Part shown: piece after piece, positions 26,845-49,613 of the stretch
How positions within the stretch are numbered: position 1 is the first letter of the stretch
Layout of the letters: the number at the start of each line of letters is the position of its first letter
Origin: Saccoglossus kowalevskii
Taxonomy: Eukaryota > Hemichordata > Enteropneusta > Harrimaniidae
NCBI RefSeq assembly: GCF_000003605.2
Contig: NW_003156751.1
Span: 81,236-131,558 of the forward strand
Length of the DNA stretch: 50,323 nucleotides
Direction: 5' to 3'
Notes under the pieces: model-generated
Told to the model about the DNA's origin: nothing
Seen by the model: the letters and a program-made list of their open reading frames with translations, nothing else
Databases searched by the model: none
Made by a program: the position numbers and the translations under genes

Positions 26845-27329
26845 CTACAACAATGCTTTGGTCTTTCCTTTCTTAATGTTCGTTGCTGCATTGACTTTGT
26901 TTCTTTTGGATATCACCTTCATTTGTCCGTTATTCAAATCTGTCCTTGCATTTGTCTCTGCAAGAGACTGAAATATTGGTGATAAGTATTCAGTCAAAAG
27001 AAGTGATTCAGTTCTTCCTTTACGCTGAGCTTTTCTGAAGTCCATCAGCAGTGCAGCAAGTCCCCATGGAGGGATGTCATCATCATTATTTGTTTTCCTG
27101 AGTCCATGTTGTTCTATAAGCCACACAGCTTCCTGCATTCTGTCCACAATGCGACTGAGTTGGTCTGGATGTACATTCCTTGTAACATTCAAATCAACTT
27201 CAAATGGATTCTCAATGTACAATGGGTAATCCTCCGGCTTAGGAAATTTGTCACCACGTCTTAGAGAAATAGCAAACTTTTGAAAGTTGAATCTTGCATA
27301 AAAGTCAAAGAATTCATACATAAGTTGAC
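26845..27329 (-). CDS. MTPAP: MTPAP exon 8 (PAP-associated domain, stop)
   Basis: Acceptor TTTCTTGCAG before 27,329; 160 codons and a TAG at 26,845-26,847. It encodes MYEFFDFYARFNFQKFAISL, PLYIENPFEVDLNVTRNV (PAP/25A-associated signature), QEAVWLIEQHG, PWGLAALL, and a lysine-rich tail ending KGKTKALL. Confidence 0.93.
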
Positions 27330-30300
27330 CTGCAAGAAAAAAAAATAGAAATTAGAAATGTCCATGTGAATCAGGGTTAGGTCAAGAAATGCCTAACAAT
27401 GTTTTAATCAAGAATATTAACTGCAAATTATAGATCTTTGGATCAAAAGATTTTTGAAGAAATTTAAATGAAATTGAAAAGTAATCTATGATATAAATGC
27501 AATTTAGAAATACCTAATGATTGCGTATTGAGTGATGTGGGTATACTATTGATATCACTGAGGAATGTACAGTTAACATCATCCACAATACACTGGTCAG
27601 AGGAATCTGAAAGAAACAACCAGATAAAGTAGAAATGATGACTTTGACAAATACAAAAATATGAAATCTAATAATATAACAAGCAGCAATGTCGAAGCTG
27701 TACAAGCAGCAATGTTGAACAAAATCCATTCATAAATGACCGGTTCCGGAATGCCAGAAATACTGGATTTTTAGCACAAAAATCGGATCATCAAACCAAT
27801 ATATTTGATATCTACAACATGATGTATAATGAATATATAAAATTTGCTTGAACATAATCAATCAAAGTATGTCATAAATATGGTACTGAAAAACAAAATT
27901 ATGTGCATCAAATCCCATAATGTCAACAGCCAAGGTCAGGTTCCCGAATACCAGAAATGCTTGATTTTGATGATTTTTCAGCACAAAAATGGCCACAATT
28001 TGGCCATCTTGAATCAGATCGTGAAACAAATGAATGTGCATATGTATAATAATATGTATAATGTATGTATGAAGTTTAAAGGTAATCGGTCTAAGCATCT
28101 CTAAGTTATAGGTCAAGAAGTACCCACACACAGACACACACATGCACACAAGTCAATCAATAAAAAAAATCATTATTACAGCAAAGTATGGTATGATGTG
28201 TGCACGTGTAGGACTGTTTAAATGTGTTTACCTACCTGCCATTGCACATAAATAGTCTAATGTAGGCACAACTGATGGCGATCTAGTTTGTAAGAAATAA
28301 ATTACCATCAAAGTTATCCCAAAATTGGTAATCCACGGTCCGGGGCAACTTGTTGTGATACCATTGTATCTTGCCCAATGTCTAAATGCAAACACTAGAG
28401 GGCGTACTCTTGAATCATAATTGCCATAGAGATACAGCAATTCTGTGGTCTTTGTTGCAATGCTGTGTGAAGAATAAAAGTTGTGTGAATTATGACAAAT
28501 TGTTGATGCAATATACTGCATGATTTGTTTGTATTTTTCAAACTTGGTACAAAGAGAATACATGATATCACACATATTATACATTATCTTTGATCTTCTT
28601 TTGATTGATATAAAATAGGCTTAAATCCTAAACTTGAACATGTTTGTAACAGATTCACAGATATAACTAGGCCAAGTGCAATTAAATTTGGTATGATGAC
28701 TATACATTTTGGGTTGCATTGTTATTTTTTCAAGATGGCTAACTAATGTTTTTATTTTGTTTTCATTATGTTCTTAACTATATTTTTCCGGTGTGCTGTT
28801 ACCAGTTATAGTCAAACTTAAAGCACATACATATATGTACACTATATTGTACGTGTACATGTATACAATATGATCTAAACAAATTTAGCTGAGTGGTGGC
28901 CATTTTCTTAATAAAATTGTCAAATCAAAATACATGTACTTAAACTTGACCCCCATCTGGTTTTCAGAATGACTGGATCAATGTAAATACATAAATGTGT
29001 GTAGCAGATGCACATTTCTATTTTCTTTAGATCAGATATAAGATATGCATCAAAGTTACTGTCTTTCAACTTTTCATTCAAGCTTAATCTCAGTGACCTC
29101 ATATGATTTTGGAAGATTAATACAATTAAATTATTGACAAGGATCACATCATTTACAATGACTTGTTAGTTTGTGAGCTTCAGGTCAACATTTAAAATTC
29201 CTAAAAAAATATGTGGGTTTATTTAGTGAAAAGTGGCAGATTTGGACAAACACAAACAAAGCACACTTACATGTATAACCAGTTTCATGCAATGTTTTAC
29301 ATTCAATTGTACAGCTGAACAAATATTTCTGGTCGACAAGTTTCTAAAATTGATGCATAGATATCTTTTCATTTTTATTCTGAAATTGTCATAAAATTCA
29401 TGATTTTTCATGAAAACTGAATTAAAGGGGGAAAAAATGATGACATACATGTTTTAACTGACCAGAAATTTGAATATTTTTTTGTTTCATAAACAAATGC
29501 TATTGTCACAGTAAACAGCTTTATTTCACTATAGAAACAATCTCTTGAACTACACAAGCTAATTTTGCAGCATTGAGCATCTCACTGGAGTCATTGAGCC
29601 GGTGTGTCACATTGAACATGTCACTGAAGTCATTGAGCCAGTGAGTCACATTAAACATTTCACTACAGTCCTTGTGTGAGGGAGTCACATTGGCCAGTGA
29701 GCCAAATTGAACATTTCACTGGAGCATTGAGCCGGTGTGTCACATTGAGCATCTCACTGGAGTCATTGAACCAGTGAGTCACATTAAACATTTCACTGGA
29801 GTCATTGAGCCAGTGAGTCACAATGAACATTTCACTACAGTCCTTGGGTGAGGAAGTCACATTGGCAAGTGAGCCAAATTGAACATTTCACTGGAGCATT
29901 GAGCCGGTGTGTCACATTGAGCATCTCACTGGAGTCATTGAACCAGTGAGTCACATTAAACATTTCACTGGAGTCATTGAGCCAGTGAGTCACATTGAAC
30001 ATTTCACTACAGTCCTTGGGTGAGGAAGTCACATTGGCAAGTGAGCCAAATTGAACATTTCACTGGAGCATTGAGCCGGTGTGTCACATTGAACATTTCA
30101 CTGGAGTCATTGAGCCAGTGAGTCCCTTTGAGCATCTCACTGGAGTCATTGAACAAGTGAGTCACATTGAACATTTCACTAGAGTCATTGAGCCGGTGTG
30201 TCACATTGAACATTTTACTGGAGTCATTGAGCCAGTGAGTCACATTGAACATTTCAATGGAGCCATTGAGCCATTTGTTTCCTATGGCATGTCTGAAAAT

Positions 30301-33300
30301 TTAGCAAGGAAACATCAGGTGAGATAACAACCAGTGCAATTATATGACAAAATTACCTTATTTTAGTGGGATTTTAAGGACAAACTGTATTTTCATTGTG
30401 TTTTGTGAAATCCGCTGAAAATCTGTCATTTTGTGCATATCATTATTTTACAGATTTACAGTGAATATACAGTAATGCAACGAGGTGTATAGAGAATATT
30501 AAGGTATGAGACATGTATCAGTGACACATTTTGGTAATACAAAATGTACCAAGCTTGAATGAAATCATCCTACATTTGTAGGCGTTTCTGATGACTGAAA
30601 AGACTTGTTCAGTGTTTATCTGATTTTAGGATGAAAATGACCATCAGTAGATTAAATTGAACCCAACAGTTACCTAGTATCTGTGATGTTCAAACACGAA
30701 GTTTGGATGAAATCAGCTCAGGCATGTCTGGGAAATGGCTGAGGACAGGTGGACATACATGTATTGTGTTTTTCTGCATTATTTAGAACAAAAAGTTGGT
30801 CAAATATCACAGAATACTAAAACAAACTGACATGCAATCTTTGTACCAAATTTAAACAAAATCCATCTAGGGATGTTCAAAAAAATTAGTCAAAATAAAA
30901 ACACAAGTCAAAATTTTCAGACTGTGTTCAAATGAGAATTACGAAACAAGACTCAATGCACAATCTGTTTACACTAATTGTTCAATTAAATACACGTATG
31001 TGGAATATCAAAAATTCAGAGACATTCATTATGGGTATAAAATACAATGTACCTGTTGTTTGAAGAGAGATCGCACTGTAGATTTGCTGCCTTGTGGTGA
31101 AATTTCACAATCGGGCATCTTGCTTTCAGTATCCTTTGCACACTCACACAGTGTGGTACATTTTCTTGTAAAAACGTTGCTACTGTACCGAGTGTCTGCT
31201 GTGTTGCAGCCCTTTCAGAAGATGCTGATTTTGTGTCAAACACCATCTGAAATCTATTTCTTCCCTACAAAATTAAATAGTAACACAAATAAACTAAGCT
31301 GCAATTAAAATCTGTGTTAATAATAATGAACCCTACATGTATTGATATACGTTGATATGAGTTTATGAAACCCATACATTAATGTGAGCTATGTAGGACT
31401 GTGATGTGTTGACACTGATGTGAGTAATATGGGGGCCATACATTGATGTGAATAATATGGGGGCCATATGGTGATGCAAGTATTATGGAATCCACATGTT
31501 GATATGAGTAATATTGGTCCCATACATTAATGTGAGCGATGTAGAACTGTGATGTGTTGACACTGATGTGAGTAACATGGGGGCCATACATTGATGTGAA
31601 TAATATGGGGGCCATATGTTGATGCAAGTATTATGGAATCCACATGTTGATATGAGTAATATTGGTCCCATACATTAATGTGAGCGATGTAGAACTGTGA
31701 TGTGTTGACACTGATGTGAGTAATATGGGGGCCATACATTGATGTGAATAATATGGGAGCCATATTGTGATGCAAGTATTATGGAATCCACATATTGATG
31801 TGAGTAATATTGGTCCCATACATTAATGTGAGCAATGTAGAACTGTGATGTGTTGACACTGATGTGAGTAATATCGGGGCCATACATTGATATGAATAAT
31901 ATGGGGCCATATGGTGATGCAAGTATTATGGAATCCACATGTTGATGTGAGTAATATTGGTCCCATACATTAATGTGAGTGATGTAGAACTGTGATGTGT
32001 TGACACTGATGTGAGTAAGATGGGGGCCATACATTGATGTGAATAATATGGGGGCCATATGGTGATGCAAGTATTATGGAATCCACATGTTGATGTGAGT
32101 AATATTGGTCCCATACATTAATGTGAGTGATGTAGAACTGTGATGTGTTGACACTGATGTGAGTAAGATGGGGGCCATACATTGATGTGAGCAATGTAGA
32201 ACAGTGATGTGTTGACACTGATGTGAATAATATGGGGGCCATATGGTAATGCAAGTATTATGGAATCCACATGTTGATGTGAGTAATATGGGACTCACAC
32301 AATATGTAACTGTACTGAGAAGTTATTAAGATTTGTCATACTGACTATTAGCCATGATACATGTATTACAGTATTATTTTAATAATTTTATGTCATTTAT
32401 CTGACAAATTTGTAAAAGACTTCATACATACACCAGGTACATATGTGTCAAAATCATATTGCACCACTCACCGTTTTCACAGGAACAACACCATTTTGGG
32501 AACCTAGTTCCATATACATATCAAGATCACTTCCTGCTTTACCAAAGGAATTAACTGTAGAACCAAATGGATAGATTGTACAATTTGGAACAATTTTTTC
32601 TATGCCTTCTTCAATCAAAGAACACACAAGGAATCGTTTGTGTAAATCTTCATCAGCCAGCTCTTGTTCCTTTGTTAAAATCATCATTTGTTCATCAACC
32701 TGGATGAAAAAAAAATCAAGTTAGGTTTTTACCACTGGAGTTAGGCACCACAAAATAGTCATAAGGCATATAGAGCAGGGAATGCAATGAAGTTAGGCAT
32801 CTACTCAATGAAATTAGACATGGCCAATGGAGTTAGGCAACCCTGTATCAATGGAGCAGAGTTCACAATGAATATATATCAACAGAGTTAGGCATATTTA
32901 AGCAGGGCATGCAATGGAGTTAGGCATCTACTATTCCAACTAGGCCTCTATCAAAGAAGTCAGTATTAATAAAAGCATTCACCAAAATGATTCAACCAAC
33001 TATTAACCAACTATTAACACTACTAAAACAAGTCATTGTCAATGACACGTCCCCGTTCCGTTCATATTTGAGTGACATATACATTCAAAGCAGATCATGA
33101 CCGAAATGCACCTGCATATGTACAACACATTGTGCTAAATCTGAACAAAATCCATCCATGCATGACTGAGATCCGGTTCTGGAATTGTGAAAATACGTGA
33201 TTTTGATGCATTTTCGGCCTTAAAATGGCCATCATTCCGCTATTGTTAAGCGGATCATGAAACAAATGCAAATATCTATTTGTGACATGATGTACCATGT

Positions 33301-35842
33301 GTGTGTGAAGTTTGAACTTGATCAATCCAGACACGTCTTGGATACGGATCCAGAACTGAATTCTTTAACAAAATGGCCGCCAGTCGGCCATTTCGAACTT
33401 GATCCGAAAAAAAAAAAGACGTGCATCAAGGTCCTATTATGTTTAATGTATGTACCAAATTTGAACAAAATCCATCCATGCATAACTGAGATACGGGTCC
33501 GGAATTTTGAAAATGTGCGATTTCAATGCATTTTCGGCCTTAAAGCGGCCCCCATTTGGCTATCGTTAATGAGATCATGAAACAAATGCACATACATATT
33601 TGTGACATGATGTACCTTGTGTGTGTGAAGTTTGAACTCGATNNNNNNNNNNNNNNNNNNNNNNNNNNNNNNNNNNNNNNNNNNNNNNNNNNNNNNNNNN
33701 NNNNNNNNNNNNNNNNNNNNNNNNNNNNNNNNNNNNNNNNNNNNNNNNNNNNNNNNNNNNNNNNNNNNNNNNNNNNNNNNNNNNNNNNNNNNNNNNNNNN
33801 NNNNNNNNNNNNNNNNNNNNNNNNNNNNNNNNNNNNNNNNNNNNNNNNNNNNNNNNNNNNNNNNNNNNNNNNNNNNNNNNNNNNNNNNNNNNNNNNNNNN
33901 NNNNNNNNNNNNNNNNNNNNNNNNNNNNNNNNNNNNNNNNNNNNNNNNNNNNNNNNNNNNNNNNNNNNNNNNNNNNNNNNNNNNNNNNNNNNNNNNNNNN
34001 NNNNNNNNNNNNNNNNNNNNNNNNNNNNNNNAAAAAAAGGACAAAGGTCATATCATCGTAGTGGCGACAATCATCACGTGGGATTTCACAAACGCAAAAG
34101 TATTTTGAGTATTTCCATGCTTAATAATGTGCTGTAGACATTTGATGATAGTCAATTTCAATGAAGTAAGGGTATTCAAATGCAATATTTCCCTGTCAAT
34201 GATTGGCCTTTCAATGTGAGCTATGAAATAAAGAAATTCAAGTTCAAAACCAAATCATTTGATTTTTGCAGCAGACATTCGGTGTGCACCTTTCCTGCAA
34301 TTCACAAGATCTCGCTGTTGTAAGGAAAATTGCTTATTCGATGTGTGTTCAATCAAAAGTAGATAAAGCAATGTGCACCTTGCTATGCGATGAAGACCCC
34401 ACATGATTACCAGAAATCACAAGACAAACACATTTTCAGAAATACTAAAAGCAGTTTTGTCTGAGGCTGCATTTTTTAGCCTTCGAGAAAATAATTGCAT
34501 GTCCAATAAACTCAATCACTTTGGTTTCTATTTTGAAAACATGTATTGACTTACTGAATTAGCAGCTTGTAGTTTCTGATGAAAATTAATTTGTAAATGC
34601 TCTATGCTGTGTTGGGTTTCGTAATTTGTCTTCGTTCTACTTTTGGACTCACTACCACCAGAGAAATTTAATAGACGAGATTGAAATGATGATTTCTTCT
34701 GAGATTTTTTGGGTTTAACTTTATTCAGTAATTCTTGTATACTACTGGAATCATCAAATTCTATAACAGCATATAGACCCTGTGTAGAAAGATATAAAAA
34801 GTCAACAATGTTACAATCTCTTCTAAAATCAGCATCAATTTCATGAAATCACATGGATGTACATTGATGTACTGCACAGTTTGTCAAATGAACACTACAT
34901 TCCATACATTTTGTATTTGTAACAGATCTAATCGAAACTTTTGTACAGATTGTTCACAATAATACAGAATTGAAACAAAGACAAAATAACCTTACATCTC
35001 CTGTGTATGTAAATGAGTTCCTTAATTTTCCAAGCTGAGAACAATAGTTTATCAGCCCCTTTTCCACGCCTTCACCTCTAAGCCGGACGAGTATACTTCT
35101 ATTTGCCTGATCTCTATGCTCAGATAAAAACTCAGCAAAATTCTTTTTCTTTGCAACTGAAAAAAAATTTATCATTTAAATCTCAGTGGTACGGATGGGA
35201 TGACATCATGAGTATTTAATATAAATAAAAAGAATAAGACAATTAGCACATTCAATTTTATTTTACTCCATTACCTAGAGTGTCGACAGTCCTCGGGCCT
35301 AATGTAATTGTGTTTCCTAGACATTCGAACGCCAAAGGCATTTGATGGGAAACATTTCACGCAAGGGACTTTAACACAACACAAACGATGTGGCAGTAGG
35401 ACTATTTAGTTGTCAATACTACAAAGTGTTTTTGTTAGTTTGTAATTCTTCGCCTAGCAATCGACAGGACAGTCAGTTTTATGAACCAAGTAACACCTTG
35501 GTAACGGATTACGCAATGGAATTATTTTCTTTTGTAAATTATAACTATTTCACCGTTTTCAGTGCGATCACAAAAAAATCATTATCAGCTATCGATGAAA
35601 TATTTTAAAACTTGTTTATCAGTAGGAATAAATCAACACAAGATCCCTCTAATAACAAAAATACGCAAATAATTGGCGTAGTAAAATTCTTGTGGTGATT
35701 CATCACAAAATGGTGGTGTGTGGTGGCAGAGATACTTTCGATGATCTAACCGCAAGAAACTCTGAGAAGAAGAATGCACACGCATATGAACTGTGCTTGA
35801 CAAGATGACATCATTGTCAGGAATGGGTATCTGCACATGCAT
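26845..35842 (-). CDS. MTPAP: Mitochondrial poly(A) polymerase (MTPAP/PAPD1), eight exons
   Basis: A non-canonical poly(A) polymerase of the Pol beta nucleotidyltransferase superfamily. In other animals this enzyme adds poly(A) tails to mitochondrial mRNAs in the matrix. Join of exons in transcript order: 35842-35665, 35156-34996, 34779-34555, 32699-32472, 31246-31053, 28462-28236, 27606-27514, 27329-26845. All introns are GT-AG, all phases agree, and the product is about 596 residues, close to vertebrate MTPAP (about 580). Order of domains: a short Arg/Ser-bearing leader (1-59, possible mitochondrial presequence); an RRM-like (RL) domain (about 60-125, SILVRLRG to GLYAVIEF); the catalytic core with PFGSTVNSFG and DLD (G234, S235, D246, D248); the third acidic residue D323 in LQCDLSSNNS; the central domain with WITNFGITLMVIYFLQ (330-404); and the PAP-associated domain with LYIENPFEVDLNVTRNV near the C-terminus. 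All three catalytic aspartates are present, so the enzyme should be active. Only exon 1 is uncertain. Confidence 0.9.
27514..27606 (-). CDS. MTPAP: MTPAP exon 7 (93 bp)
   Basis: Acceptor TTGTTTCTTTCAG, donor GTATTT; phase 1 on both sides, so skipping it would not shift the frame. It encodes SSDQCIVDDVNCTFLSDINS and IPTSLNTQSL, matching the NCTF...N-T-L segment that precedes the PAP-associated domain in vertebrate MTPAP. Confidence 0.88.
   Translation of the reverse strand: MPLTSVLWMMLTVHSSVISIVYPHHSIRNH
27740..28160 (-). repeat. Copy of the hairpin-bearing dispersed repeat (reverse orientation) in MTPAP intron 6
   Basis: Contains TTTTTCAGCACAAAAATGGC followed by CACAATTTGGCCATCTTG, CATGATGTATAATG and a CACACACAGACACACACATG tract. 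These are the reverse complement of segments seen at 41,130-41,640. Both ends are eroded. Confidence 0.75.
28236..28462 (-). CDS. MTPAP: MTPAP exon 6 (central domain)
   Basis: Acceptor TTCTTCACACAG, donor GTAGGT; 227 nt, entering in phase 2 and leaving in phase 1. It encodes ATKTTELLYLYGNYDSRVRP, LVFAFRHWARYNGI, PGPWITNFGITLMVIYFLQ and RSPSVVPTLDYLCAMA, the central domain that holds the nucleotide base. A second GT four bases downstream would break the frame with exon 7. Confidence 0.93.
28463..29559. other. First part of MTPAP intron 5 region, no feature
   Basis: Intronic AT-rich sequence. Apart from a short ACATGTA-rich patch near 28,830-28,860 (TATATGTACACTATATTGTA), nothing is recognised. 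Confidence 0.5.
29570..30272. repeat. 39-bp tandem repeat with 172-bp higher-order unit (MTPAP intron 5)
   Basis: The unit CATTGAGCCAGTGAGTCACA plus TTGAACATTTCACTGGAGT is 39 bp, so it reads as a 13-residue repeat in open frames on both strands. A 172-bp block containing a variant GGTGAGGAAGTCACATTGGC segment is itself repeated three times (starts about 29,663, 29,835 and 30,007). The plus frame at 30,079-30,327 and the overlapping minus frames are products of the repeat, not genes. Confidence 0.95.
30273..31052. other. Remainder of MTPAP intron 5, no feature
   Basis: Unique-looking intronic sequence between the 39-bp array and exon 5. No coding or repeat signal recognised. Confidence 0.5.
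31053..31246 (-). CDS. MTPAP: MTPAP exon 5 (third catalytic aspartate)
   Basis: Acceptor AGATTTCAG before 31,246, donor GTACAT after 31,053; ends in phase 2. It encodes SSERAATQQTLGTVATFLQ, SVQRILKARCPIVKFHHKA and NLQCDLSSNN. The aspartate of QCDL is the third metal ligand. Strongly similar to the equivalent part of vertebrate MTPAP (VQKILNARCP...). Confidence 0.92.
31371..32292. repeat. 148-bp tandem array built of ~37-bp subunits (MTPAP intron 4)
   Basis: Blocks beginning CCCATACATTAATGTGAGC repeat at 148-bp spacing (31,371, 31,519, 31,667 and onward), each holding about four variants of a subunit like ATGTGAGTAATATGGGGGCC. One block near 31,870-31,930 is a few bases short, and near 32,180 an internal rearrangement changes the order. 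Because 148 is not a multiple of 3, overlapping open frames recur in different frames. These frames (minus strand, 31,379-32,298) are not genes. Confidence 0.95.
32472..32699 (-). CDS. MTPAP: MTPAP exon 4 (catalytic GS and DxD motifs)
   Basis: Acceptor TTTTTTCATCCAG, donor GTGAGT; 76 codons, phase 0 on both sides. It starts VDEQMMILTK and carries YPFGSTVNSFGKAGSDLDMY, the hG[G/S]...DxD signature of the nucleotidyltransferase fold (G234, S235, D246, D248 in the predicted protein). Confidence 0.93.
32730..32960. repeat. Short degenerate GGAGTTAGGCA repeat cluster (MTPAP intron 3)
   Basis: The phrase GGAGTTAGGCA or a close variant (AAGTTAGGCATCTACT, GAAATTAGACATG, AGAGTTAGGCATAT) recurs seven or so times at irregular spacing of 20-50 bp. 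It appears to be a small, old minisatellite. Confidence 0.6.
33040..33642 (-). repeat. Hairpin-bearing dispersed repeat, cut by assembly gap (MTPAP intron 3)
   Basis: Contains two tandem versions of an internal segment (ACAAAATCCATCCATGCAT at 33,145 and 33,465; GATGTACC-TGTGTGTGAAG at 33,289 and 33,610), GTCCCCGTTCCG at about 33,050, and the palindromic AAAATGGCCGCCAGTCGGCC at 33,370. It is the reverse-strand version of the family at 41,049 and 50,098. The copy runs into the N gap. Confidence 0.75.
33643..34031. other. Assembly gap (389 N)
   Basis: Run of undetermined bases inside MTPAP intron 3, directly next to a dispersed repeat, so probably a repeat-induced gap. The length may be an estimate. 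Open frames drawn through it are artefacts. Confidence 1.
34032..34554. other. MTPAP intron 3, 5' part, no feature
   Basis: Unique-looking intronic sequence between the assembly gap and exon 3; no gene or repeat recognised. Confidence 0.5.
34555..34779 (-). CDS. MTPAP: MTPAP exon 3 (second half of RRM-like domain and linker)
   Basis: Acceptor CTACACAG, donor GTAAGTC; 75 codons, phase 0 on both sides. It begins GLYAVIEFDDSSSIQELL (equivalent to the RNP1 strand of an RRM), followed by a lysine/serine-rich linker (KPKKSQKKSSFQSRLLNF) and a helical segment before the catalytic domain. Confidence 0.88.
34996..35156 (-). CDS. MTPAP: MTPAP exon 2 (start of RRM-like domain)
   Basis: Acceptor TTTTTTTTCAG precedes 35,156 and donor GTAAGG follows 34,996. 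It encodes AKKKNFAEFLSEHRDQANRS, then ILVRLRGEGVEKGLINY and CSQLGKLRNSF, matching the linker and first half of the RL domain of vertebrate MTPAP. Phase in 1, phase out 0. Confidence 0.88.
35157..35664. other. MTPAP intron 1 (provisional)
   Basis: Sequence between provisional exon 1 and exon 2. The plus-strand frame at 35,390-35,608 has no recognisable family and is taken as chance. Confidence 0.45.
35665..35842 (-). CDS. MTPAP: MTPAP exon 1 (leader; start and donor provisional)
   Basis: The first ATG in this frame is at 35,842, with an in-frame TAA shortly upstream. The translation contains MRVHSSSQSFLRLDHRKYL, Arg/Ser/Leu-rich and low in acidic residues, as in mitochondrial targeting peptides, and ends QEFYYANYL. 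The donor TTGC|GTATTT after 35,665 is weak but leaves phase 1, exactly what exon 2 needs, and uses the same GTATTT as the exon 7 donor. An alternative upstream non-coding exon or a different start cannot be excluded. Confidence 0.5.
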
Positions 35843-36000
35843 TAATTAAATGGCCGCTGCTGCTGTGTCGTCACAGGAAGCACTGTCCCAGTCATATGAC
35901 GCCTTACTAGCCAATTTTGGCTAAAATAGCACTCCGCAGCCTCTTTACACTTATGTTTATACACGGAACTTGATAATTTTTTTCCAATTTAAGTTGCTTT
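35843..36000 (-). promoter_or_regulatory. Probable MTPAP core promoter region
   Basis: Upstream of the provisional MTPAP start there is no TATA box. ACAGGAAG (ETS/GABP-type core) lies at 35,873-35,880, with a GTCATATGACGCC palindrome-like segment and an AAATGGCCGC segment nearby. ETS/GABP sites are common in TATA-less promoters of nuclear genes for mitochondrial proteins; assignment here is by motif only. Confidence 0.3.
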
Positions 36001-36744
36001 TTAATCACGTATTTTAGTTAAATATTGTTTAGTGAGTGAAATATTAATGTCATAAATAATTCAATCTTCGAAACAACAGAAACTAACACATAATAACGAT
36101 AATCAAATATGTGTTTGAAGTTCTAAAGTACTTGCGTAATTTCCGGTTTCAACTAGTTCGAAAATTTCACGTCCATGGATGCGATAAAATCAGGCGTAGA
36201 ACGCCTTTCGTACCAGACACTAGCAGCGTAAACTTATTACAAATTTGCGTAATTTGGGCCCAGTTTGTTCTTACAAGTTTCAATTATCATTATTTAGTAA
36301 ACAGACCCATGAAACAATTTAATACTTCTGTAAAATACGTGCCAACAGACGACTGACTTCGAAACGTTCAAAGTTTCGAACAAACTCCCGGCTCACTATG
36401 CACGATATGCGTCAGAACGGTGTAGAAGACGCTGACCTGCAGCGTCAATGGCTAAGGAGTTACATAGTCGGATTTCGTGACATTTTCACCAAAATATACA
36501 GGATAAAGATAAGCAAAGGTAAATAAAGTTTGATCGATCGACTAGAAATGAATTTGTTGTCATTCGTTGCGAGTTTGACAGGTAATAATTGATGGGAACA
36601 TTTTTGAAAAATTGTATTTATTTATTTTGACGGATGAAGGTTTTCTACCATGTCTATTTCTTTAGTTCTAGAAGTGTATAACTTAGGGCGATTTTGGTTC
36701 TAGGGGCGATTTATGTCAAAACGACGAACCAAGCAACGTAAAGG

Positions 36745-37686
36745 CCCTGGACGGTTGCGGCCCTGGTAAAAAAAAGACGTTCCGTCCCAAAAACATGTTA
36801 ATGTTAATATATTAAATGCACAAGTGTTTGACTATCTTGTTTAAGAACTTATTTTTTGTCTTTTGCAGGGCATTTTTCACGATTTAACACCGTGTTTGAC
36901 AGTGCAACAGATATATGTTCATTTATTCGCCGCCGCCTATGCACATGAACCACAGACATTAGAATACACATCTAATACAATCTGTTTTAGTCAGGGTTCG
37001 AATGCACATTCGTGGTTTGTCGCGTAATAAACGTTAATACATTAAATGCACAACGAATGTATGACTATCTTATTCACAACTTATTTTTCGTCTTTTGTAG
37101 CACTTATCAGAGTTCATGGAAAGAATGCAGCCAATTAACGCTTACATTTTAGCATAATGCAAAGGCCATACACATCTCCTGGTTGGGCATGGTGTCAAAA
37201 TACACACAATCACTGAAATGGTAATGAGGAGTGTAGCAAACAGGTCACTTGACTCCAGTGACAAGGTGTCAAAGCACACACGAATATTTAAATAGTAACA
37301 AGTGTAGTGAACCAATTTTCTAATCAACATGATTATTATCCAGCAAACGCAATGTAGCATTAAATCTGCTGTTTTCAATTGAATTCATTTGTAACATTTC
37401 CTTGCCTTGTTTGAGTTTCTTTTTATAATCAGTGGGACTTATATAACGCGACTACCGTAACATGGGACGATTTTTTTTTATTATAAGTGGGACAGATAAA
37501 ACGCGACGTACCGTAACATGGGACGATTTTTTTTTTCATTATAATTGGGACTAATAGTGGGATGAATACGATTTGAATATCCATCTTTTGAAAAATCAGG
37601 GCCGGATCGACCAAACTGTTTCGGGGCCGGAACGTCCAAACCAGGGCCGGAATGTCTTTTTTTTTACCAGGGCCGGATCGTCCTGA
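36745..37686. mobile_element. Candidate inverted-repeat element in the divergent intergenic region
   Basis: The left arm GGACGGTTGCGGCCCTGG followed by TAAAAAAAAGACGTTCCG (about 36,747-36,783) is the reverse complement, with few differences, of the right arm CGGAATGTCTTTTTTTTTAC followed by CAGGGCCGGATCGTCC (about 37,645-37,682). The interior contains three kinds of direct repeats: a ~75-bp pair (GTTAATA-ATTAAATGCACAA at about 36,800 and 37,030), an ~80-bp pair (GGTGTCAAA-ACACAC at 37,191 and 37,264), and a ~63-bp pair (ACCGTAACATGGGACGATTT at 37,454 and 37,511). No transposase and no clear target-site duplication were found. Confidence 0.5.
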
Positions 37687-37779
37687 CACCAAATGAGTAA
37701 CCCCAAAATGAAGTAGGCCACCAACCGGTTGACCTATCATGTGATCGGCGACGGCCACGGTTCGTACATTCGAGTGCAG

Positions 37780-38338
37780 GAGCATTACGGGGATCCATTA
37801 GAAATCAAAGAGTTGTTGAGCTGTGCAATCGTTGATACGTTCGATTGAGTGTAAGAGTACCGTCCATGGCGATCGCGTGGTGCGCGAAGGATCACGCCAC
37901 TCAGCAATGCACACGCACATAGTACTCACCGGTTTTATGTATATTTACATTTTCTCTGGTTATTTTACCGCCATTGACAATTGAAGTGGTTGAGAAAAGT
38001 CTCTTGATACATAATGAGCACTGATTTACGCATGGAATCGGTAAATGTGTCAGACAACCACAAAGTTTCATGGAAGTCGCCATTTTGAATGGCAGTGTGC
38101 GCATTTTTGTTTGCGCATCCAAACAAATATACATTGTACGTGCTTGAAAATATTTAGGTCGACTTTATATTTGGCGAATTTGCTTTACAAATATTATTTA
38201 TGTTCGATGAATTATCAAACCCTTTTTTACTAACAATGATAAAATGAAATTAAACTATCATGACCTTTTAAACTTTGACCGTGATCACGTGTTTTCTGCC
38301 GCCATTTGTAAAAATACATGTACAAAACAAGTGTGTGA
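37780..38338 (+). promoter_or_regulatory. Probable TUT1 promoter region with YY1-like sites
   Basis: Two sites resembling the YY1 consensus (AANATGGCGGC) occur on the minus strand: GTCGCCATTTTG near 38,077 and GCCGCCATTTG at 38,298-38,308. The second lies about 30 bases before the first ATG of TUT1, a typical position for YY1 in TATA-less promoters. No TATA box is evident. The region also contains GATCACGTG (E-box) near 38,282. Functional assignment is inference from motifs. Confidence 0.3.
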
Positions 38339-38420
38339 ATGATGGAAATGGAAGAAAACGTATACACTGAACAAGGTCATGGCTATGTATGTAACATTTG
38401 TCATGTTTACCTCAATACGG
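38339..38420 (+). CDS. TUT1: TUT1 exon 1 (first half of zinc finger)
   Basis: ATG at 38,339; M2 and M4 follow at once, so the exact start could be any of three. It encodes GYVCNICHVYLNT and ends G|GTAAGT in phase 1. The split codon with exon 2 becomes GAT (D28). Confidence 0.85.
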
Positions 38421-41400
38421 GTAAGTATGCGCGTTCAACTGGCGTTTGTATTTTGCATAACATTGCTAAAATGATATTTGAAACTAATACTGAAGAAAAA
38501 AAAAATCAATTCAATCATAAACATTTATAAAGTGCCTGAATCCAAAACTATGCTCTGTTCAAAGACGCTAAGGGAATTATTCCACGATGTAGGCTTTGTT
38601 GAATAAATATGTTTTAACTGACTTGACGCATGTCAGATGGAAGGGTGTTCCAAAGTTGGGGAGCAGAACGTGAAAAGTAATAATAATGTGAATGCGCCAC
38701 TAAAAATATGATTTCACTTGGTGATTGTCAAAATGTATATTATTTTGTGAACCTATTGCACAAACGTAGTAAAATTATATTTTTTTTGTTGCTGATTATT
38801 AATAGTGTTGCATTATTATTTTATTTTGTTCAGTATTAGTATTAGTTTAACATGCTGACACACAATTGATAATCAAATAAATGTGATTAGTTTGACGATA
38901 TTTACTATATGGGGTCAGTCATCTTGAATATCGCATGAAACGAAAGAGTTTCAAGCCATATTCTAAATGACTTTTCCTGTATACACAGTTATTATTTTGA
39001 AACTGCTGCTTTTGAAACACCAAACACATTTTGCCTGACGAGTTACACCATTCATTCCTTATTGGGGCAGAAACTTGCACTACACTTGTTGTGGAAACTG
39101 TAACATACAAAATGAAAACACACAATCATTCTTGTTAAGCATAATATCAATATTAACACAAATATTGGTAAACTTTTCCTAATAGACAATATGCAAGACA
39201 AAATCATTCTGCCAACATTTATCCCATCACTAAGACAGTGCCTTTATTTATTTTATGGACACTTTTAATATCTTAAAATGTAGACTAAAACTAAGACATA
39301 CAAAATATGTCTAGAACTAAAACTAAGACATACAAAATATAACAAGACTAGAAATGATAAAACTATGAAAATAAGAAATAAAACTTAAATATTTCTGGAG
39401 AAAATAACATTACAAAAAGTTTGGTCGCTATAACAACATAAAAGTTAAGTAGAATTCAATTACAGACTGGGTTCACTATGTTCAGTGAAGAAGTAATTCC
39501 ATGTTTATACTGCAACTTATTACTATTATATTTTCTATGTACATTGCTAGCTAGGCTGATGATTAGTGGCAAATTATGCCAAATTAAGCCAAATAAACTA
39601 TTCAACAAAAGACTATATTACTGTGAAATACTTTATTTTAGCTGGAATAGTTATGTTTGAAGCATGTCTAAAGTTATTATCAATTGTTCAGTTTGGACAA
39701 ACTGAATGATTTGTATACCTGCAGCATCTCTTTGATGACTGTTACAGTTACAGAAACCCTAGTCTTTTAGATGATATCTTTTTGTAGATCTCTTCTCTTA
39801 AACCAAACAATGTTTAGATTGCCATTAAATGGATAGACAATATCGCATGTTAAAGTAGAAGCCTACCGATAGTCATAATTTTTGACAAAATTGGTCATAA
39901 ATACCATGACGATGTTCGTTAGTTTATTATGTACAATGAAGCTAATGTCCCATGGTACAATGAAATAGCATTATTTTGTGTGTTACAGTTATGCTTTTTG
40001 AAAAATGTGTTCTAATATTTCTTGAAAATTGCTATTTTTAGAACAATTCCATAGAACACACTTTTTAAAACCCAGATTTTTTAAATAATTCAGAACAACA
40101 AAAAGTACTCCAACATTAACAATATATGATTTTTTTTCAGCCTCTGTCACTAGGCTAGATTTTGAGATATTTCATAATAAACGTGTTATAAATACAAATG
40201 TAGTGTCAAAATGGTGACCTTCCACTAAAATACAACCATTAATTTCTCAAATAAAAGGCTGGTGACCCCCCAATTTTTTTTTAAGTCAATATTCTTATAT
40301 TGCCTTGAAGTACAGTTTATTGCAAAATGAATAAATTCTGGGTATTTTAATTTATGAGTAGGCTTCTACCTTAAATCATTATCAGTAGTGGTGTGTGCAT
40401 GCCACTAATGCCCAGATTTGATTAGTTTTGGGTTAAAATGTGTGAATATTAATTTGTATATTGATTTGTCAATTTTTAATTAATTTTTAATGCGTCTCAA
40501 ACACTCTTAGCACACAGTTCTTTGATTTTTCTTCTTTTTTGAGATTTTGATTTTACTACACAATATAGGGCTTCCTTAGTAATACTTATGTATAGTTATG
40601 ACTACTTTCATTGATCACATTGAGACAGTGGTGTGCATAATGTCTTGCTGCATACACAGTCTGTTTCCTCACATTAACCACATGCATTACTGACTAACCT
40701 AGCAATTTTCAGCTTTTCCAAATCAGTTGTAATGCAGGGGCAATTATGTTATGATCAAGAAACATAAAATGAACGTATCAACTTTATGTCTATATGCAAT
40801 AACATTAAGAATTGCACCATTTATTTTTTTTTGTTAATTAGATAAAGTACTCAATGATCATTTGAAAGGAAAGAAACACAACAAACTTAATGACATGATT
40901 CAATACAGAAAACGACAAGCTGAAAGAAGTATCTATGTATGTGGATTTGCCAAGGGTACCTCAGAACTGGCCTTAATTGATCATTTCTCTGATTATGGTA
41001 CAGTGTCTAATGTTATAATGGACAAGGATAAAGTAAGTATTATTTATTAGTGCCGTTAGGACGCAGTGCGAAAACAGGGACTTATGTTTTGACCTCCGTG
41101 TGTCCAAGCGTGCGTCTGTGCGTGCGTCCGGACCTGTATCTTAGAAATGCCTGGACCAATCACAATCAAACTTCACACATACATCATACATGATAGTATA
41201 CATATGCGCGTCAATTTGTTTCACGATCTGATTCAAGATGGCCGAATGGCGGCCATTTTTGTGCTAAAAAATCATCAAAATCAAGCATTTCTCGGCTGTT
41301 TACAGATGGATTTTGTTCAAACTTGGTATATACATTAGACATTATGGGACCTTAATGCAATTAATTTTGTTTTTCAGATAAGATTCAAAATGGCCGACTG

Positions 41401-44400: not shown

Positions 44401-47400
44401 TCATCGATCCCAGTGATACGATGTATATACCCCCACCCTTGATTCTAAAGCGACCACCTATGTTTGCTTCAACGCTTATGGGATCACCGGCGTTGGGATC
44501 CAAAGCAACCCCGTCGGCACCTCTCTCCCTGTCCGCCTGAGTGTGGAGTGGGGCGCAGAGCATGCAAACAGTGTTGATGGGCAGCATTGGTCAGCTGCTG
44601 AGGATGTAATGCTTAAGGCCCCCGGGTGAGGATAACATTAGGCAACACTTCCCACTGGACCAAACGCTACCCGGTCGGTGTGGTTTCGAGATCAGACCCC
44701 ATAGCGTGGGATGAGACCAAAACGCCCCCAACCGGATTCCAAGGCTCCTTCCCCAGACCCCGGTACCCCGAATTTGGCAAACTGGGCAAAGAGGGATAGC
44801 CGTGTTCCATGGGTGTCTTTGCCAATTGAAGACGACCCATCCAGCCCTGAGGGCAGAGTTGCTTGAGCGCATGATTATGCGTGACCAGCACTCTGGAGAC
44901 CTTGGAGGCAGAACGCACCAGCCTCCTAGACCAGGCGACATTTTTACTGATGGGCCACTGCACATCTACATGCGACACCCCCTAGTGTCGCCTGGATCTC
45001 TTGGCCAGGGCCACTACCGTGCTACGAAACGCGGCCTTAGACGCATGTGTTTTCGCCAACAAGCTGAGCCGGGGTACGTCCCCACCTCAGTGACGCAGAC
45101 TGGACCATCCTCCACCCTCTTTGTTCAGAGAATGGTGGGTACAGTCTCGGAGCTTCGGAGTGGAATGAACCAGAGGGTTCAGATTGAATCCGCTAGCTAG
45201 TTGGTCCTGCCATGGGCAAACAGAGGGCACCCCAAGCACAGAAAACACAACGCCCTAGGGCGTCATCCGCTAGCCAGAGTCAGCCAGGAGGCAAGCGCTT
45301 ATACCCTTCCATAGCAATCCTCCTTTGGTGCCTGGAATACAATGTGGAGCTAACCGCACACCTCCTTCCAGGGGTGAGGAACAGTTTGGCGACGCCCTTT
45401 CAGGGCGGCTCCGTCTCCAGAACTCGGAGTGGCTGATACCCAGTGGGTAGCCTCCAGGCTGTTTCGGCCGTGGGACGGTTCAAGGTTGGACCGTTTTGCT
45501 GCACCCCGGAACGCCAAGCTCCCGACGTACGTAACACTTCTGCTGACTCCAGGAGCCTGGGCCAGGGTCACTTTGCTAGCCCCATGGACTCACTTAGTTG
45601 TGTATGCCTTTCCTCCATTCCCGCTAGTTCACAGGGCACCGGAGAAAACTTCGACAGGTGCACACCCCCATATTATTATGGGTTGCACCCAATTGGTCAA
45701 GCAAGGCCTAGTTTCCACTTCTGTTGGAAATGCTAGTCGAAGCGCCAGCAGTGCTTCTGGACTTACCGGACCTGCCGTTCCAACCAGACGGCGCACTACC
45801 AACGCGCCCAGCAGGCATCACTCGCACGCATTGAGGCTCTCAGTAGACCCGCACATACGAAAGCCTTATCTGAGCGGGCTGCCAACGTCCTGGCCAGGGC
45901 GAACAGGGATTATACCTTCGCGGCCTACATTACGCGACTGCAAGCATACACTGATTGGTGTAGTGGAAGGGAGATTAATCCATACCATCCCTCTATTGGC
46001 CAGGTAGCAGGCTCCTTCGTCTACCTGTTTGACGAAGTGAGTTTGTCCTACGCAGCGAGTGTTGGCTACAGGTCGGTCTTGTCCCCCACCACTCAGAACA
46101 TACGGGAACAAGACTAGCCGATTGTCCTATTATTAGGAGACTATTTACTGTTTTCCAGACGCCAAGACCCCATACAAGGGGGCCGCCCAACTGGGACTCG
46201 TCGGCTGTGTTATCTGCTCTAAGCAGACCGCCCTTTGAGCCTCTCCAATCAGCACCACTCAAATTTTTGACGTGGAAAATAGTCTTCCTACTGGCCCTCG
46301 CCTCAGGTAGGCGCCGCTCAGAGCTAGGCGCACTGTCATTCACAGACGGTTGTGCCGCTTTTATGGACGATCAAGTTGTACTAAAGACACGAATCGGGTT
46401 TCTCGCCAAGAACCAAATCCCAGGACACGATCCTCAACCGATCATCATCCCCCGGCTGGCAAATATTGTCGGCCCAGAGGATCAGGAGGAATTGCTTCTC
46501 TGCCTGGTCCGAGTGCTGAGTTTCTACGAGAACCGTACCAGGTTTTCCAGACAGATGTTTTTGTGTTACGGCCCTGGCAAACAGGATAAGCTGGCTTCCC
46601 CGACTTCATCTCCAGTTGGATTACTGCGACTGTACTGGAGGTCTATAATACACTATCCTCCTCAACACAGACCTCGCAGAGACACCAAGTACGAGAACAT
46701 GAGGTCCGTGCGATTGCTAACTCACTAGCGCTAGCGTCAGGTGCCCCCCTCAAACACATTCTGAGGGCAGGCTTCTGGAGAACGCAGAACGTCTTCATCA
46801 ACTACTACCTAAGAGACACCCAATCTATTGAGCAGGATCTCTTCAGGTTAGGCCCCGTCGTAGCGGGTCAGGCCTTGTTTGCTGACCCAGCCCAAACGAC
46901 CGCAGGGGCCTCTGTGCATAGGCGATAAGTCAGTCTCGGCATTTTTGCGGGCAGATTGTCTGTTCCACTAGCACTTCCTGGAAGCTCCCAGGTTTCGCTT
47001 CTGTCAACCTACGCCCTCATGCGAACTGTTTCGGTCCTACTTCAACCTTATCACCCCTGAAATTGGCTTGAGTCTAGCTTTCTCTGGCACAGCGAACCCT
47101 GTCACCACAGCAGCATTGGCGAGGGTTCTCCGAACCCGCCTATACACATAGTTCATACCCACCATGAAGCGAGAAGCCTCGCCTAATTTTGTTTAATGAA
47201 TGCTGTTCTAGCGCCATATCTTTGACATGCTTTGACTGATTTTATATATGAATTATACATTATATCATAGATATACCAATGTATAGTTTTGACGATCTGA
47301 TTCAAAATGGCTGACCTGTGGCCATTTTGTTTCATTTAATGCTGTTCCAGAGCAATATTTCTCAATATGAACAAGTACTCGTACTATATTACTATAAACA

Positions 47401-49613
47401 AAACTATATAACTTAGATTTGATAACTAACAGGGACTGTGTCCTGCATGGCTTGTTTTTCATAATATGTACTTTCAAACATCCAAATACTGATTTTGTAA
47501 AATTGCCAGACACTGACAAATACTCTTAGTATTCAGAGATTATGGAAGCTTGTTTTCTGATGAGATGTGACCTACATGTACTAAATACAGATTCATTCTC
47601 CTACTTGCAGATTTCTGAATTAAGTTTGCTTTTTAATTGAGTTGCAGCAATTTGTGTGTACTCCAGGTTCACCATTGTTTGGTTTCGTTGCCCAGAAAAT
47701 TGCATCAAACACTGAATTCTGTAAGATTAGAAACTGTCAATTCATGCTATTCTGAGGACCAATGCATCAGAGTATTCACAAAAACAATAGTTTATTGTTT
47801 AACAAAGCACATGATAAATATTATAATTCCTTATTAACTCTTATCTGAAAAGTAAATGTAAAAGTGCATATGGCTGGCAGAATAAACTGTGTTGAGTATG
47901 TTCCACGAGTACTTGATAGAATTTGTCATTGCTGACTTGTGGCTATTTTGTTTCAATGAATGCAATTCTAGTAGCAAATCTTTGACATGCACTGGCCAAA
48001 CATCACAGGACTATGTAATGCAATTCTAGTAGCAAATCTTTGACATGCACTGGCCAAACATCACAGGACTATGTAATGCAATTCTAGTAGCAAATCTTTG
48101 ACATGCACTGGCCAAACATCACAGGACTATGTAATGCAATTCTAGTAGCAAATCTTTGACATGCACTGGCCAAACATCACAGGACTATGTAATGCAATTC
48201 TAGTAGCAAATCTTTGACATGCACTGGCCAAACATCACAGGACTATGTAATGCAATTCTAGTAGCAAATCTTTGACATGCACTGGCCAAACATCACAGGA
48301 CTATGTAATGCAATTCTAGTAGCAAATCTTTGACATGCACTGGCCAAACATCACAGGACTATGTAATGCAATTCTAGTAGCAAATCTATGACATGCACTG
48401 GCCAAACATCACAGTACTATGTAATGCAATTACTCATTGTAAAAAAGTATTTTGCATCCTGAATCAACATAAAATTTATAATTGCTTTGGTGGTTTTTAT
48501 GTACCTCAGGGAAAATATGCCATAATTGAATTAGAGAGTAAAGACAGTGTTGAGAAGATACTCTCAGCGGAACATACCATTGCAGGACACAAGATAACTA
48601 TAAAAGAAAGGCAGCACAAGGAAGTACAATATAAACGTACACAAAAGAAGGGAAAATCAGTGAAAGACAAAGAGAAGAAATCAATTGAAGATTTGATTAA
48701 CTTGATTGGAAATGAATCATCTGTAAGTTGATTGGCTTACAAGTACACGTGTTTCAAATGACATCACTAAGATTAAATCATGTGATTAATTATTTATGAA
48801 AATGTTCTTTTCGACAAACAAGTGAGTAAACAAAAACTATAATATCGACTGATGTATTTATAACTTTTGTGGCATTGAATTAATTCAGCAAAGATTTGTT
48901 CAGGGAATGAGTGTTCTCAGGTTTCACAACAAGTCGCAGAAATTTCACAGCAAAGGAAACTCAATTAGGGTAGAAAATGACTATTTGTACGCACACACTC
49001 AACACATTTGATATCTGTTCACATTGATCATCATTGTGATTTATGTCTGCTCAGTTCTCATCTCGTAATCATAAATTATTTTTGTGACACTCCTACACCT
49101 GCCACATTTCATCTCACAACCAACTGCATTTCAAGACGTTATGTAATATGTCTTTATTTTAGTTTTTTTTTCTTGTTTGTACATCTAATTGCAAGTTTTC
49201 CATTTATCAGTGTCTATTTGTTCTGACTGTCATTCTGTTCATGATCCAGTGTGAGTCTATCACCCCCACCCCCCCACCTTTACAATGCTTCAAAATTGCT
49301 GGGAAATCTATTATATCTGTTGAATTGAATGTAACTTGCGTATATAATACTTTTTCAGATTAGCGATCAGATGGCTAACTTAATGTCAAATGTAAGATTA
49401 CAATCCCAAGACGTAAAATTACGATATTTAATATGTGACTTGCTGCAAGAAATATTCAAAGAATTCTTTCCTAAATGTTTGGTCTTCCCATTTGGATCAT
49501 CCGTAAATGGATTTGGTTCCAAGGGATGTGATCTTGATCTTCACTTGGACTTGCATGGAAGTAATTACAAATATATATTTTGTAAGATTCCAAAGGAATT
49601 CTCTGATGAAAAA
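38339..49613 (+). CDS. TUT1: TUT1 / Star-PAP (U6 snRNA uridylyltransferase, nuclear poly(A) polymerase), 5' part
   Basis: In other animals TUT1 is a nuclear enzyme that restores the oligo(U) tail of U6 snRNA and, as Star-PAP, polyadenylates selected mRNAs. Visible exons: 38339-38420, 40842-41032, 48510-48722, 49359-49613; more exons must lie beyond the right edge. The joined frame is 247 codons. Domains in order: a C2H2 finger of the matrin/U1 type (C18, C21, H34, H40, with 12 residues between the pairs and 5 between the histidines), an RRM (about 56-130, RSIYVCGF and GKYAIIEL), a lysine-rich linker (KKGKSVKDKEKKS), and the start of the catalytic domain with PFGSSVNGFG and CDLDLHLDL (G208, S209, D220, D222). 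This finger-RRM-catalytic order is diagnostic of TUT1 and excludes MTPAP or TENT2. The third catalytic aspartate, the PAP-associated domain and the C-terminal region are outside the window. The gene starts 2.5 kb from the divergently transcribed MTPAP. Confidence 0.9.
38421..40841 (+). other. TUT1 intron 1, no gene inside
   Basis: A 2.4-kb GT-AG intron. A stretch at 38,530-38,690 (GGAAGGGTGTTCCAAAGTTG and GGGGAGCAGAACGTGAAAA) resembles a common type of old dispersed repeat in marine invertebrate genomes, but I could not assign it. The remainder is AT-rich without recognisable features. Confidence 0.5.
40842..41032 (+). CDS. TUT1: TUT1 exon 2 (second half of zinc finger, first half of RRM)
   Basis: Acceptor TTTTTTTTTTGTTAATTAG, donor GTAAGT. 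It encodes KVLNDHLKGKKHNKL, then RSIYVCGFAKGTSELALIDH and FSDYGTVSNVIMDKDK. The two histidines completing the zinc finger (H34, H40) and the RNP2-like strand are here. Ends in phase 0. Confidence 0.92.
41049..42005 (+). repeat. Near full-length copy of the hairpin-bearing dispersed repeat (TUT1 intron 2)
   Basis: Begins 17 bases after the exon 2 boundary with a decayed hairpin (AGTGCCGTTAGGACGCAGTG followed by CGAAAACAGGGACT, 41,049-41,082), followed by the GTGCGTCTGTGCGTGCGTCC tract. The interior repeats a ~300-bp segment twice (41,230-41,500 and 41,530-41,790). It carries four palindromes of the form AAAATGGCC-N-GGCGGCCATTTT near 41,238, 41,386, 41,538 and 41,680. AACGGGGACT at 41,961-41,970 mirrors the AGTCCCCGTT of intact copies, and similarity to another copy continues some 30 bases past it. 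Confidence 0.8.
42150..42261 (+). repeat. Left half of a split hairpin-bearing repeat
   Basis: TTTTTCAGATCAGATTAAAA followed by ATGACTGACTGGCAGCCAATT matches the family segment at 41,665-41,701. It stops at AATT (42,258-42,261), where the DIRS-like element begins. Its other half resumes at 47,185. The left limit is approximate. Confidence 0.7.
42783..43701. mobile_element. Non-autonomous DNA transposon with ~25-bp inverted repeats and TA target duplication
   Basis: Left end CCGTACTCAACCGCGTTAGC and right end (reverse complement) CCGTACTCCACCACGTTAGC match at 22 of the first 25 positions, and both are flanked by TA (42,781-42,782 and 43,702-43,703). Length is 919 bp. Subterminal AAGCGCCCA-CCCC motifs occur twice near the left end and once near the right. 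No transposase is recognised. An ATG-led frame at about 43,321 (MAESDFHREFAYDPTPSS) could be a leftover N-terminus, but it is short. TA duplication fits Tc1/mariner-like or other TA-targeting superfamilies; the termini do not let me choose. Confidence 0.82.
43995..45300 (+). pseudogene. DIRS gag-like region (ORF1), broken
   Basis: Starts with an ATG at 43,995 (MSGKSSRSATGTSCTG). Further frames give SHAFGVRWSIIDPSDTMY near 44,377 and LDLLARATTVLRNAALDACV near 44,994-45,055, a phrase typical of the end of DIRS gag proteins, and a basic tail rich in Q/R/S (45,212-45,300). Stops and frame changes are frequent. The minus-strand open frames of this interval are shadows. Confidence 0.6.
45301..45660 (+). 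pseudogene. DIRS RNase H end, broken; RT deleted upstream
   Basis: AILLWCLEYNVELTAHLLPG followed by VRNSLA (45,315-45,395) is the RNase H segment that normally reads ...A-HLPG-x-N-x-x-AD. It is followed by RPWDGSRLDRFAAPRNAKLP at 45,466-45,530 and LVVYAFPPFPLVHRAPEK at 45,593-45,650, the region typical of DIRS and related pol proteins after RNase H. The polymerase motifs that should precede are absent. Confidence 0.7.
45880..46830 (+). pseudogene. DIRS tyrosine recombinase, frameshifted, catalytic residues still visible
   Basis: N-terminal SAM-like part: LARANRDYTFAAYITRLQAY and SLSYASVAGYRSVLSP (45,890-46,090). Catalytic part: LALASGRRRSELGALSF at about 46,290-46,340 carries the first Arg. 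REHEVRAIANSLALASGAP (46,692-46,750), in another frame, carries the H-x-x-R pair. AGFWRTQNVFINYYLRD (about 46,768-46,818) carries the nucleophile Tyr. At least two frameshifts separate them, so no functional enzyme is made. Confidence 0.8.
47185..47470 (+). repeat. Right half of the split hairpin-bearing repeat
   Basis: Continues TTTTGTTTAATGAATGCTGT, CGCCATATCTTTGACATGC, then GATTCAAAATGGCTGACCTG followed by TGGCCATTTTG. AACAGGGACT is at 47,428-47,437, followed by a CTGCATGGCTTGTTT phrase also present after 41,970. Together with 42,150-42,261 it reconstitutes one older repeat copy. Confidence 0.8.
47471..47961. other. Spacer in TUT1 intron 2
   Basis: AT-rich sequence without gene signal. From about 47,935 (TGGCTATTTTGTTTCAATGA) it becomes a fragment of the hairpin-bearing repeat, from which the following tandem array grows. 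Confidence 0.5.
47962..48425. repeat. 58-bp tandem array, eight copies, nearly identical
   Basis: Units start GCAATTCTAGTAGCAAATCT at 47,962, 48,020, 48,078, 48,136, 48,194, 48,252, 48,310 and 48,368. The first seven look identical and the eighth has two substitutions. The array ends 84 bases before the TUT1 exon 3 acceptor junction. Its first half (AATGAATGCAATTCTAG and TTTGACATGCACTG) matches an internal stretch of the hairpin-bearing repeat. Confidence 0.97.
48510..48722 (+). CDS. TUT1: TUT1 exon 3 (second half of RRM and basic linker)
   Basis: Acceptor TTTTTATGTACCTCAG, donor GTAAGT; 71 codons, phase 0 on both sides. It encodes GKYAIIELESKDSVEKILS, AGHKITIKERQHKE, then a lysine-rich segment and IEDLINLIGNESS. 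The acceptor sits 85 bases after a 58-bp tandem array. Confidence 0.92.
48723..49358 (+). other. TUT1 intron 3
   Basis: GT-AG intron of 636 bp without recognised elements apart from a C-rich run near 49,261-49,279. The plus-strand frame at 49,008-49,226 is regarded as chance. Confidence 0.55.
49359..49613 (+). CDS. TUT1: TUT1 exon 4 (catalytic GS and DxD motifs)
   Basis: Acceptor ACTTTTTCAG, donor GTAAGT; 85 codons, phase 0 on both sides. It starts ISDQMANLMS and includes DVKLRYLICDLLQEIF, FPKCLVFPFGSSVNGFG and GCDLDLHLDL, the nucleotidyltransferase signature. Confidence 0.93.

Follow-up and report, generated by a model that had tools for sequence, protein, structure and literature searches.

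Divergent paralogue pairs and earlier work on MTPAP and TUT1

The head-to-head pair COL4A1|COL4A2 is very old and, according to the available part of PMC12141075, has been kept across metazoans with few exceptions; the term bidirectional promoter appears in the titles of two works cited there. We describe here another head-to-head pair, MTPAP and TUT1, from a 50-kb window (the whole stretch of DNA that was analyzed, C4627:81236-131558) of the 572-Mb genome of the hemichordate Saccoglossus kowalevskii, and consider it probable (about 0.68) that MTPAP was made by an ancient, DNA-level inverted duplication of TUT1 and that the two genes have stayed together here, probably by sharing a bidirectional promoter. 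TUT1 is a nuclear enzyme. As summarized in the accessible text of PMC7988573, it uridylates U6 small nuclear RNA (snRNA), and MTPAP polyadenylates mitochondrial mRNAs.

Among known pairs, COL4A1|COL4A2 is the closest analogue of MTPAP-TUT1. As in the pair of PMC12141075, so far as its available text describes it, divergent paralogues lie at short spacing, here 255 bp with a sister relation supported at 99/99. The COL4 products assemble together, which provides a reason for joint expression, whereas those of MTPAP and TUT1 work in different compartments and on different RNAs; likewise, wide conservation has been shown for the COL4 pair, whereas the MTPAP-TUT1 layout is known here from one genome. 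The COL4 precedent shows that two paralogues lying head to head can be kept in this layout by most animals.

The paralogy of the two genes has been reported before. According to the accessible text of PMC5509036, MTPAP was absent from all holozoans examined outside Bilateria, non-bilaterian animals included, and probably originated in the last common ancestor of bilaterians, when TUT1 was duplicated. Our analysis arrives at the same paralogy in the same direction (TUT1 older, MTPAP derived); that work was based on protein trees and species distribution, whereas gene structure and linkage are added here. The strings "intron" and "synten" occur nowhere in the main text of PMC5509036, and no earlier mention of MTPAP-TUT1 linkage was found in literature searches or in the available parts of PMC5509036, PMC6240794 and PMC7988573. 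Since PMC5509036 already derives MTPAP from TUT1, the duplication is known, and the gene structure and linkage are what is new. Because the same text reports MTPAP as absent outside Bilateria, a comparison with cnidarians and sponges, proposed in a preliminary description of this DNA, bears on TUT1 only.

Organization of the locus

MTPAP is complete and lies on the minus strand, with 8 exons encoding 594 aa between 38083 and 26845 (window numbering), while TUT1 starts at 38339 on the plus strand and has four readable exons, ending at 38420, 41032, 48722 and 49613. The preliminary description had placed the two genes head to head between 26845 and 49613, and both limits are exact, the MTPAP stop codon ending at 26845 and TUT1 exon 4 at 49613. 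To that description we add MTPAP exon 1 (37930-38083) and TUT1 exon 1 (38339-38420), which fix the spacing of the start codons at 255 bp, in sequence without gaps, and thereby bear out the layout. A single unbroken stretch holds MTPAP exons 1-3 and TUT1 exons 1-4. The only run of N within the locus (33643-34031) falls inside MTPAP intron 3, and the place where the two genes meet head to head is therefore no assembly join. The introns of both genes read GT..AG, with phases 1, 0, 0, 0, 2, 1 and 1 in MTPAP and 1, 0, 0 and 0 after the four readable exons of TUT1.

Intron correspondence

When the window genes were aligned with chicken MTPAP and human TUT1, two introns fell in the same column and in the same phase (phase 0): one before the RNP1 strand (TYTGD|GLYAVIEF in MTPAP and DKDK|GKYAIIEL in TUT1) and one before the palm domain (AANS|VDEQMM and NESS|ISDQMA, respectively). 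The two introns enclose an exon of 75 codons in MTPAP and of 71 codons in TUT1, and the palm-site match also holds in a 7-sequence alignment. These two equivalences, already seen in the preliminary description, are exact in column and phase. Two others that it had drawn stand in part: the first introns are both in phase 1 but differ in position (columns 54 vs 45), and those that follow the DxD exon agree in phase (phase 0) but lie in an unalignable loop, so that in the alignment of exon junctions two of the four correspondences are positional and the other two are of phase only. MTPAP exon 2 begins 8 residues closer to the RRM than that of TUT1. Homology of the first introns was considered and set aside, their phases being equal and their columns different; a hypothetical shift of the acceptor by whole codons would bring the two into register.

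Convergence, in which each gene would have gained the matching introns separately at sites prone to insertion, seems to us scarcely credible. Introns do prefer certain sites and phase 0, which raises the chance of agreement; for 4 versus 4 introns over 239 columns this chance is 1.4e-4, and it rises to 0.014 (at least 2 matches) with only 72 eligible sites. However, in the 172-column alignable core both introns (2/2) coincide exactly, for which the chance is 7.5e-6 with all sites equal and 8e-4 even with one site in ten eligible. Moreover, in the TUT4/7 gene of contig C4223 (332 bits with TUT4), taken as a control, the palm site falls inside a single exon, and two phase-1 introns are found elsewhere in the aligned stretch; this control is small, being a single paralogue, and the part read has no RRM-like (RL) domain and says nothing on the RNP1 site. 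Judged by these alignments, the two matching sites are demonstrably homologous and shared by descent, and the duplication copied DNA together with its introns, as had been proposed.

Age of the duplication

Both proteins match the Pfam RL family, and a tree of 10 sequences, of the kind suggested in the preliminary description, joined MTPAP and TUT1 at 99/99 against TUT4/7 and GLD2; with the two identical intron sites, these results uphold the paralogy. The longer alignment consists in part of the RL region, which only the MTPAP and TUT1 rows have. Within the 10-sequence tree the MTPAP clade received 81/84, which falls under the starred support level. A recent local duplication was rejected, since forcing the window pair together gave p = 1.15e-5 in the approximately unbiased (AU) test on the longer alignment. 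The duplication is thus old rather than lineage-specific and, on this phylogeny, demonstrably predates the split from vertebrates.

Proposed origin and retention of the pair

The 255 bp between the start codons (38084..38338) form a candidate bidirectional promoter and most likely work as one. Their CpG observed/expected ratio (o/e) is 1.43, at the 95th percentile of 989 sub-windows, and they contain two TGCGCA words, one CACGTG and one ATGGCGNC, with a second ATGGCGNC that overlaps the start codon of MTPAP. Nowhere else in the 50-kb window do at least 4 of the 27 such words come together inside 255 bp. The layout fits the shared divergent promoter proposed earlier. On a larger scale, CpG o/e exceeds 1.2 over 36000-38600 and falls to 0.33 over 38600-40800 (TUT1 intron 1), possibly marking the edge of an unmethylated stretch.

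Under the favoured origin, a single duplication of TUT1, introns included, would have placed an inverted copy next to it early in the history of bilaterians. This copy would have dropped the zinc finger and acquired a mitochondrial targeting exon 1, becoming MTPAP, with the first exon of the inverted copy replaced or remade. The pair would then have been kept head to head, with the 255 bp as a single bidirectional promoter, and such sharing would account for the two genes staying together. We infer unbroken linkage since the duplication, an originally inverted orientation, a shared promoter and selection against separation.

A more specific course of events can be put forward tentatively, although we find it rather doubtful: i) an inverted partial copy of TUT1 without exon 1 landed beside the TUT1 promoter, ii) backward transcription from this promoter provided a new first exon, which became the targeting peptide in place of the zinc-finger half, and iii) the shared promoter has kept the two genes joined from early bilaterians onwards and links the tailing of mitochondrial mRNAs with the maturation of U6 snRNA in the nucleus.

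Alternatively, the old duplicates may have been separated and later re-joined by accident in a rearrangement of this lineage, in which case the introns would reflect common descent and the layout would carry no history. The human MTPAP and TUT1 genes are presumably on different chromosomes, and a single genome has been seen here. Head-to-head neighbours are common in animals, making up about 10% of human genes according to abstracts. However, assuming 20,000-30,000 genes, we estimate that a particular pair of sister genes would be immediate neighbours by chance with a probability of about 1e-5 to 1e-4, a low prior compared with unbroken retention, for which COL4A1|COL4A2 is a precedent. On this estimate we consider re-joining unlikely and favour unbroken linkage.

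It is also conceivable, but quite improbable, that the original duplication was a direct (head-to-tail) tandem or a short dispersed copy, and that a local inversion later turned the genes head to head and gave them a shared promoter. The orientation at the time of the duplication cannot be read from the present sequence, and the DNA matches between the two halves of the locus are dispersed repeats that carry no trace of the event; this course, however, needs one event more than a direct inverted duplication. These matches had been tried as a relic of an inverted duplication and were rejected as such: there are 20, all inverted, the best with 82% identity over 198 bp, and since the introns that contain them do not correspond and copies recur near 33.2-33.6, 41.1-41.8, 47.2-47.3 and 50.2-50.3 kb, they were read as a dispersed repeat.

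Several points weigh against direct inverted duplication with retention of the pair. The ancestral linkage is deduced from one genome, and the window was chosen for its odd-looking layout, which inflates the chance estimates. The first and fourth introns have no positional match. In the 10-sequence tree the TUT1 clade is weak (58/59), and in a palm-only tree, which used 85 TUT1 residues with two typing errors in one row and had a clade at 98/95 with the TUT1 rows not joined, the forced window pair was not rejected (p-AU 0.068). TUT1 is incomplete here, with 247 residues readable. Taken by itself, its palm exon favours MTPAP (67 bits) over TUT1 (59 bits), and the assignment to TUT1 is therefore based on the zinc finger, the RRM and the fragment as a whole. 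As for the promoter, the words were chosen post hoc, after the sequence had been seen, which makes their clustering suggestive at most, and CpG o/e is also high (1.26) over 36000-37800 in MTPAP intron 1.

Should the linkage prove widespread, it would be physical evidence that the mitochondrial poly(A) polymerase (PAP) of animals derives from the nuclear U6-tailing enzyme, MTPAP-TUT1 would join the few very old paralogue pairs possibly held by a shared promoter, and co-regulation of nuclear and mitochondrial RNA tailing would become testable. The pair would also offer a concrete case of a duplicate whose new first exon brought it an organelle targeting peptide. A linkage confined to the present lineage would be a curiosity added to an already published paralogy.

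The MTPAP gene

Exon 1 of MTPAP (37930..38083, minus strand like the following seven) contains the start codon (38083-38081) and encodes a basic N-terminus rich in Cys, Ser and Thr, which by eye looks like a mitochondrial targeting peptide. Its first acidic residue is E44, and it contains RLFSTT, which may be compared with R-x-F-x-x-T, a cleavage motif of such peptides. A C-x2-C found by eye in this exon was considered as a zinc-finger trace and set aside, as it sits far from the junction. After a phase 1 intron, exon 2 (34996..35156) encodes the first half of the RL domain, and exon 3 (34555..34779) the RNP1 strand and a linker; each is followed by one of the two phase 0 introns common to TUT1 (TYTGD|G and AANS|V, respectively). 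The palm domain is encoded by exon 4 (32472..32699), with the DLD motif (D238 and D240), and exon 5 (31053..31264), with the third Asp (D321); the intron between them is in phase 0 and cannot be aligned with that of TUT1, and the one after exon 5 is in phase 2. Exon 6 (28236..28462) covers the fingers region and, like exon 7 (27514..27606), precedes a phase 1 intron, and exon 8 (26845..27329) encodes most of the PAP-associated domain, the C-terminus and the stop codon.

The protein matches, in order, the Pfam families RL (PF17797, 49.5 bits), central palm (PF22600, 122.5 bits) and PAP-associated (PF03828, 38.2 bits), all above their cut-offs. Among solved structures it scores 402 bits with chicken MTPAP and 327 bits with human MTPAP (5a2v and 3pq1, which we take to be from these species), at most 173 bits with human TUT1 and 145 bits with TUT4, and its catalytic Asp triad (D238, D240 and D321) aligns to the DxD and CDLS stretch of chain 5a2v. 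As in vertebrate MTPAP (TENT6; 5a2v, 3pq1), the RL, palm and PAP-associated domains stand in the same order and the DLD motif and third Asp are kept; no difference of substance was seen.

The TUT1 gene and related sequences in the genome

The readable exons of TUT1, on the plus strand, encode i) the start codon and the C-x2-C half of a zinc finger (exon 1, 38339..38420, followed by a phase 1 intron), ii) the second (His) half of the zinc finger and the first half of the RRM/RL domain (exon 2, 40842..41032), iii) the RNP1 strand and linker (exon 3, 48510..48722) and iv) the palm domain with its DLD motif (exon 4, 49359..49613, followed by a phase 0 intron), the introns after exons 2 (DKDK|G) and 3 (NESS|I) being those common to MTPAP. 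In Pfam the fragment matches a zf-met zinc finger (33.3 bits) and RRM_1 (26.9 bits), then RL and MTPAP-like central, each above cut-off. Its 247 residues score 146 bits with human TUT1 (residues 11-229) and 87 bits with MTPAP. As in human TUT1 (TENT1, Star-PAP, U6 TUTase; structures 9j8p and 8idf, presumably of the human protein), the zinc finger, RRM, linker and start of the palm follow one another in order, while the fingers, PAP-associated and KA-1 parts lie beyond the residues readable here.

The remaining TUT1 exons probably lie in the run of 7817 N that follows the window (50324-58140, window numbering). No further TUT1 exon was found at E<1 in the readable 32.5 kb past 49613 with human TUT1 and two MTPAP sequences as queries, a search in which short or diverged downstream exons may escape detection, since the same human TUT1 query recovers exons 2 and 4 in the window but misses exons 1 and 3.

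Genome-wide, among best-scoring candidates only, the PAP-associated domain gave three matches (MTPAP and two on C4223), and TUT1 exon 4 found only itself and MTPAP exon 4. Three candidates were obtained for the RL domain, namely MTPAP, one on C1262 and one below the cut-off with stop codons, and confinement of this domain to the MTPAP/TUT1 pair is not claimed. The C1262 match (168913-169017, minus strand; L023) reaches 22.9 bits together with its neighbours, just above the cut-off of 22.8, and could be due to chance or represent a relative. The region C4223:575000-594999 (L012, L013) holds the TUT4/7 orthologue, which shares 70% identity with human TUT4 over 264 columns of its C-terminal catalytic module and evolves far more slowly than MTPAP or TUT1.

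Repeats and flanking regions

The dispersed repeat family occupies 27781-28150, 33191-33638, 41099-41809, 47239-47328 and 50198-50323, i.e. introns of both genes and the sequence past TUT1 exon 4, and, with respect to the direction in which each gene is transcribed, the 20 matches all have one orientation. Tandem arrays are also present in the introns of both genes (29571-30273, 31371-32190 and 47959-48431, with units of about 39, 148 and 58 bp, respectively), the 58-bp array comprising 8.2 copies at 99% match. TUT1 intron 2 contains a G+C-rich insert at about 42400-47000 (0.56 at 44001-46000 versus about 0.35 around it). By eye, its open frames resemble those of a DIRS/Ngaro-type retroelement with a tyrosine recombinase; four of them were compared with Pfam and had no match up to E = 0.1. 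The window has 0 matches to RNA families and is preceded by 39.9 kb of N (contig positions 41300-81235). Past the downstream gap, at about 61-76 kb (window numbering), translations read by eye suggest a gene with repeated Kunitz-like and cysteine-rich domains.

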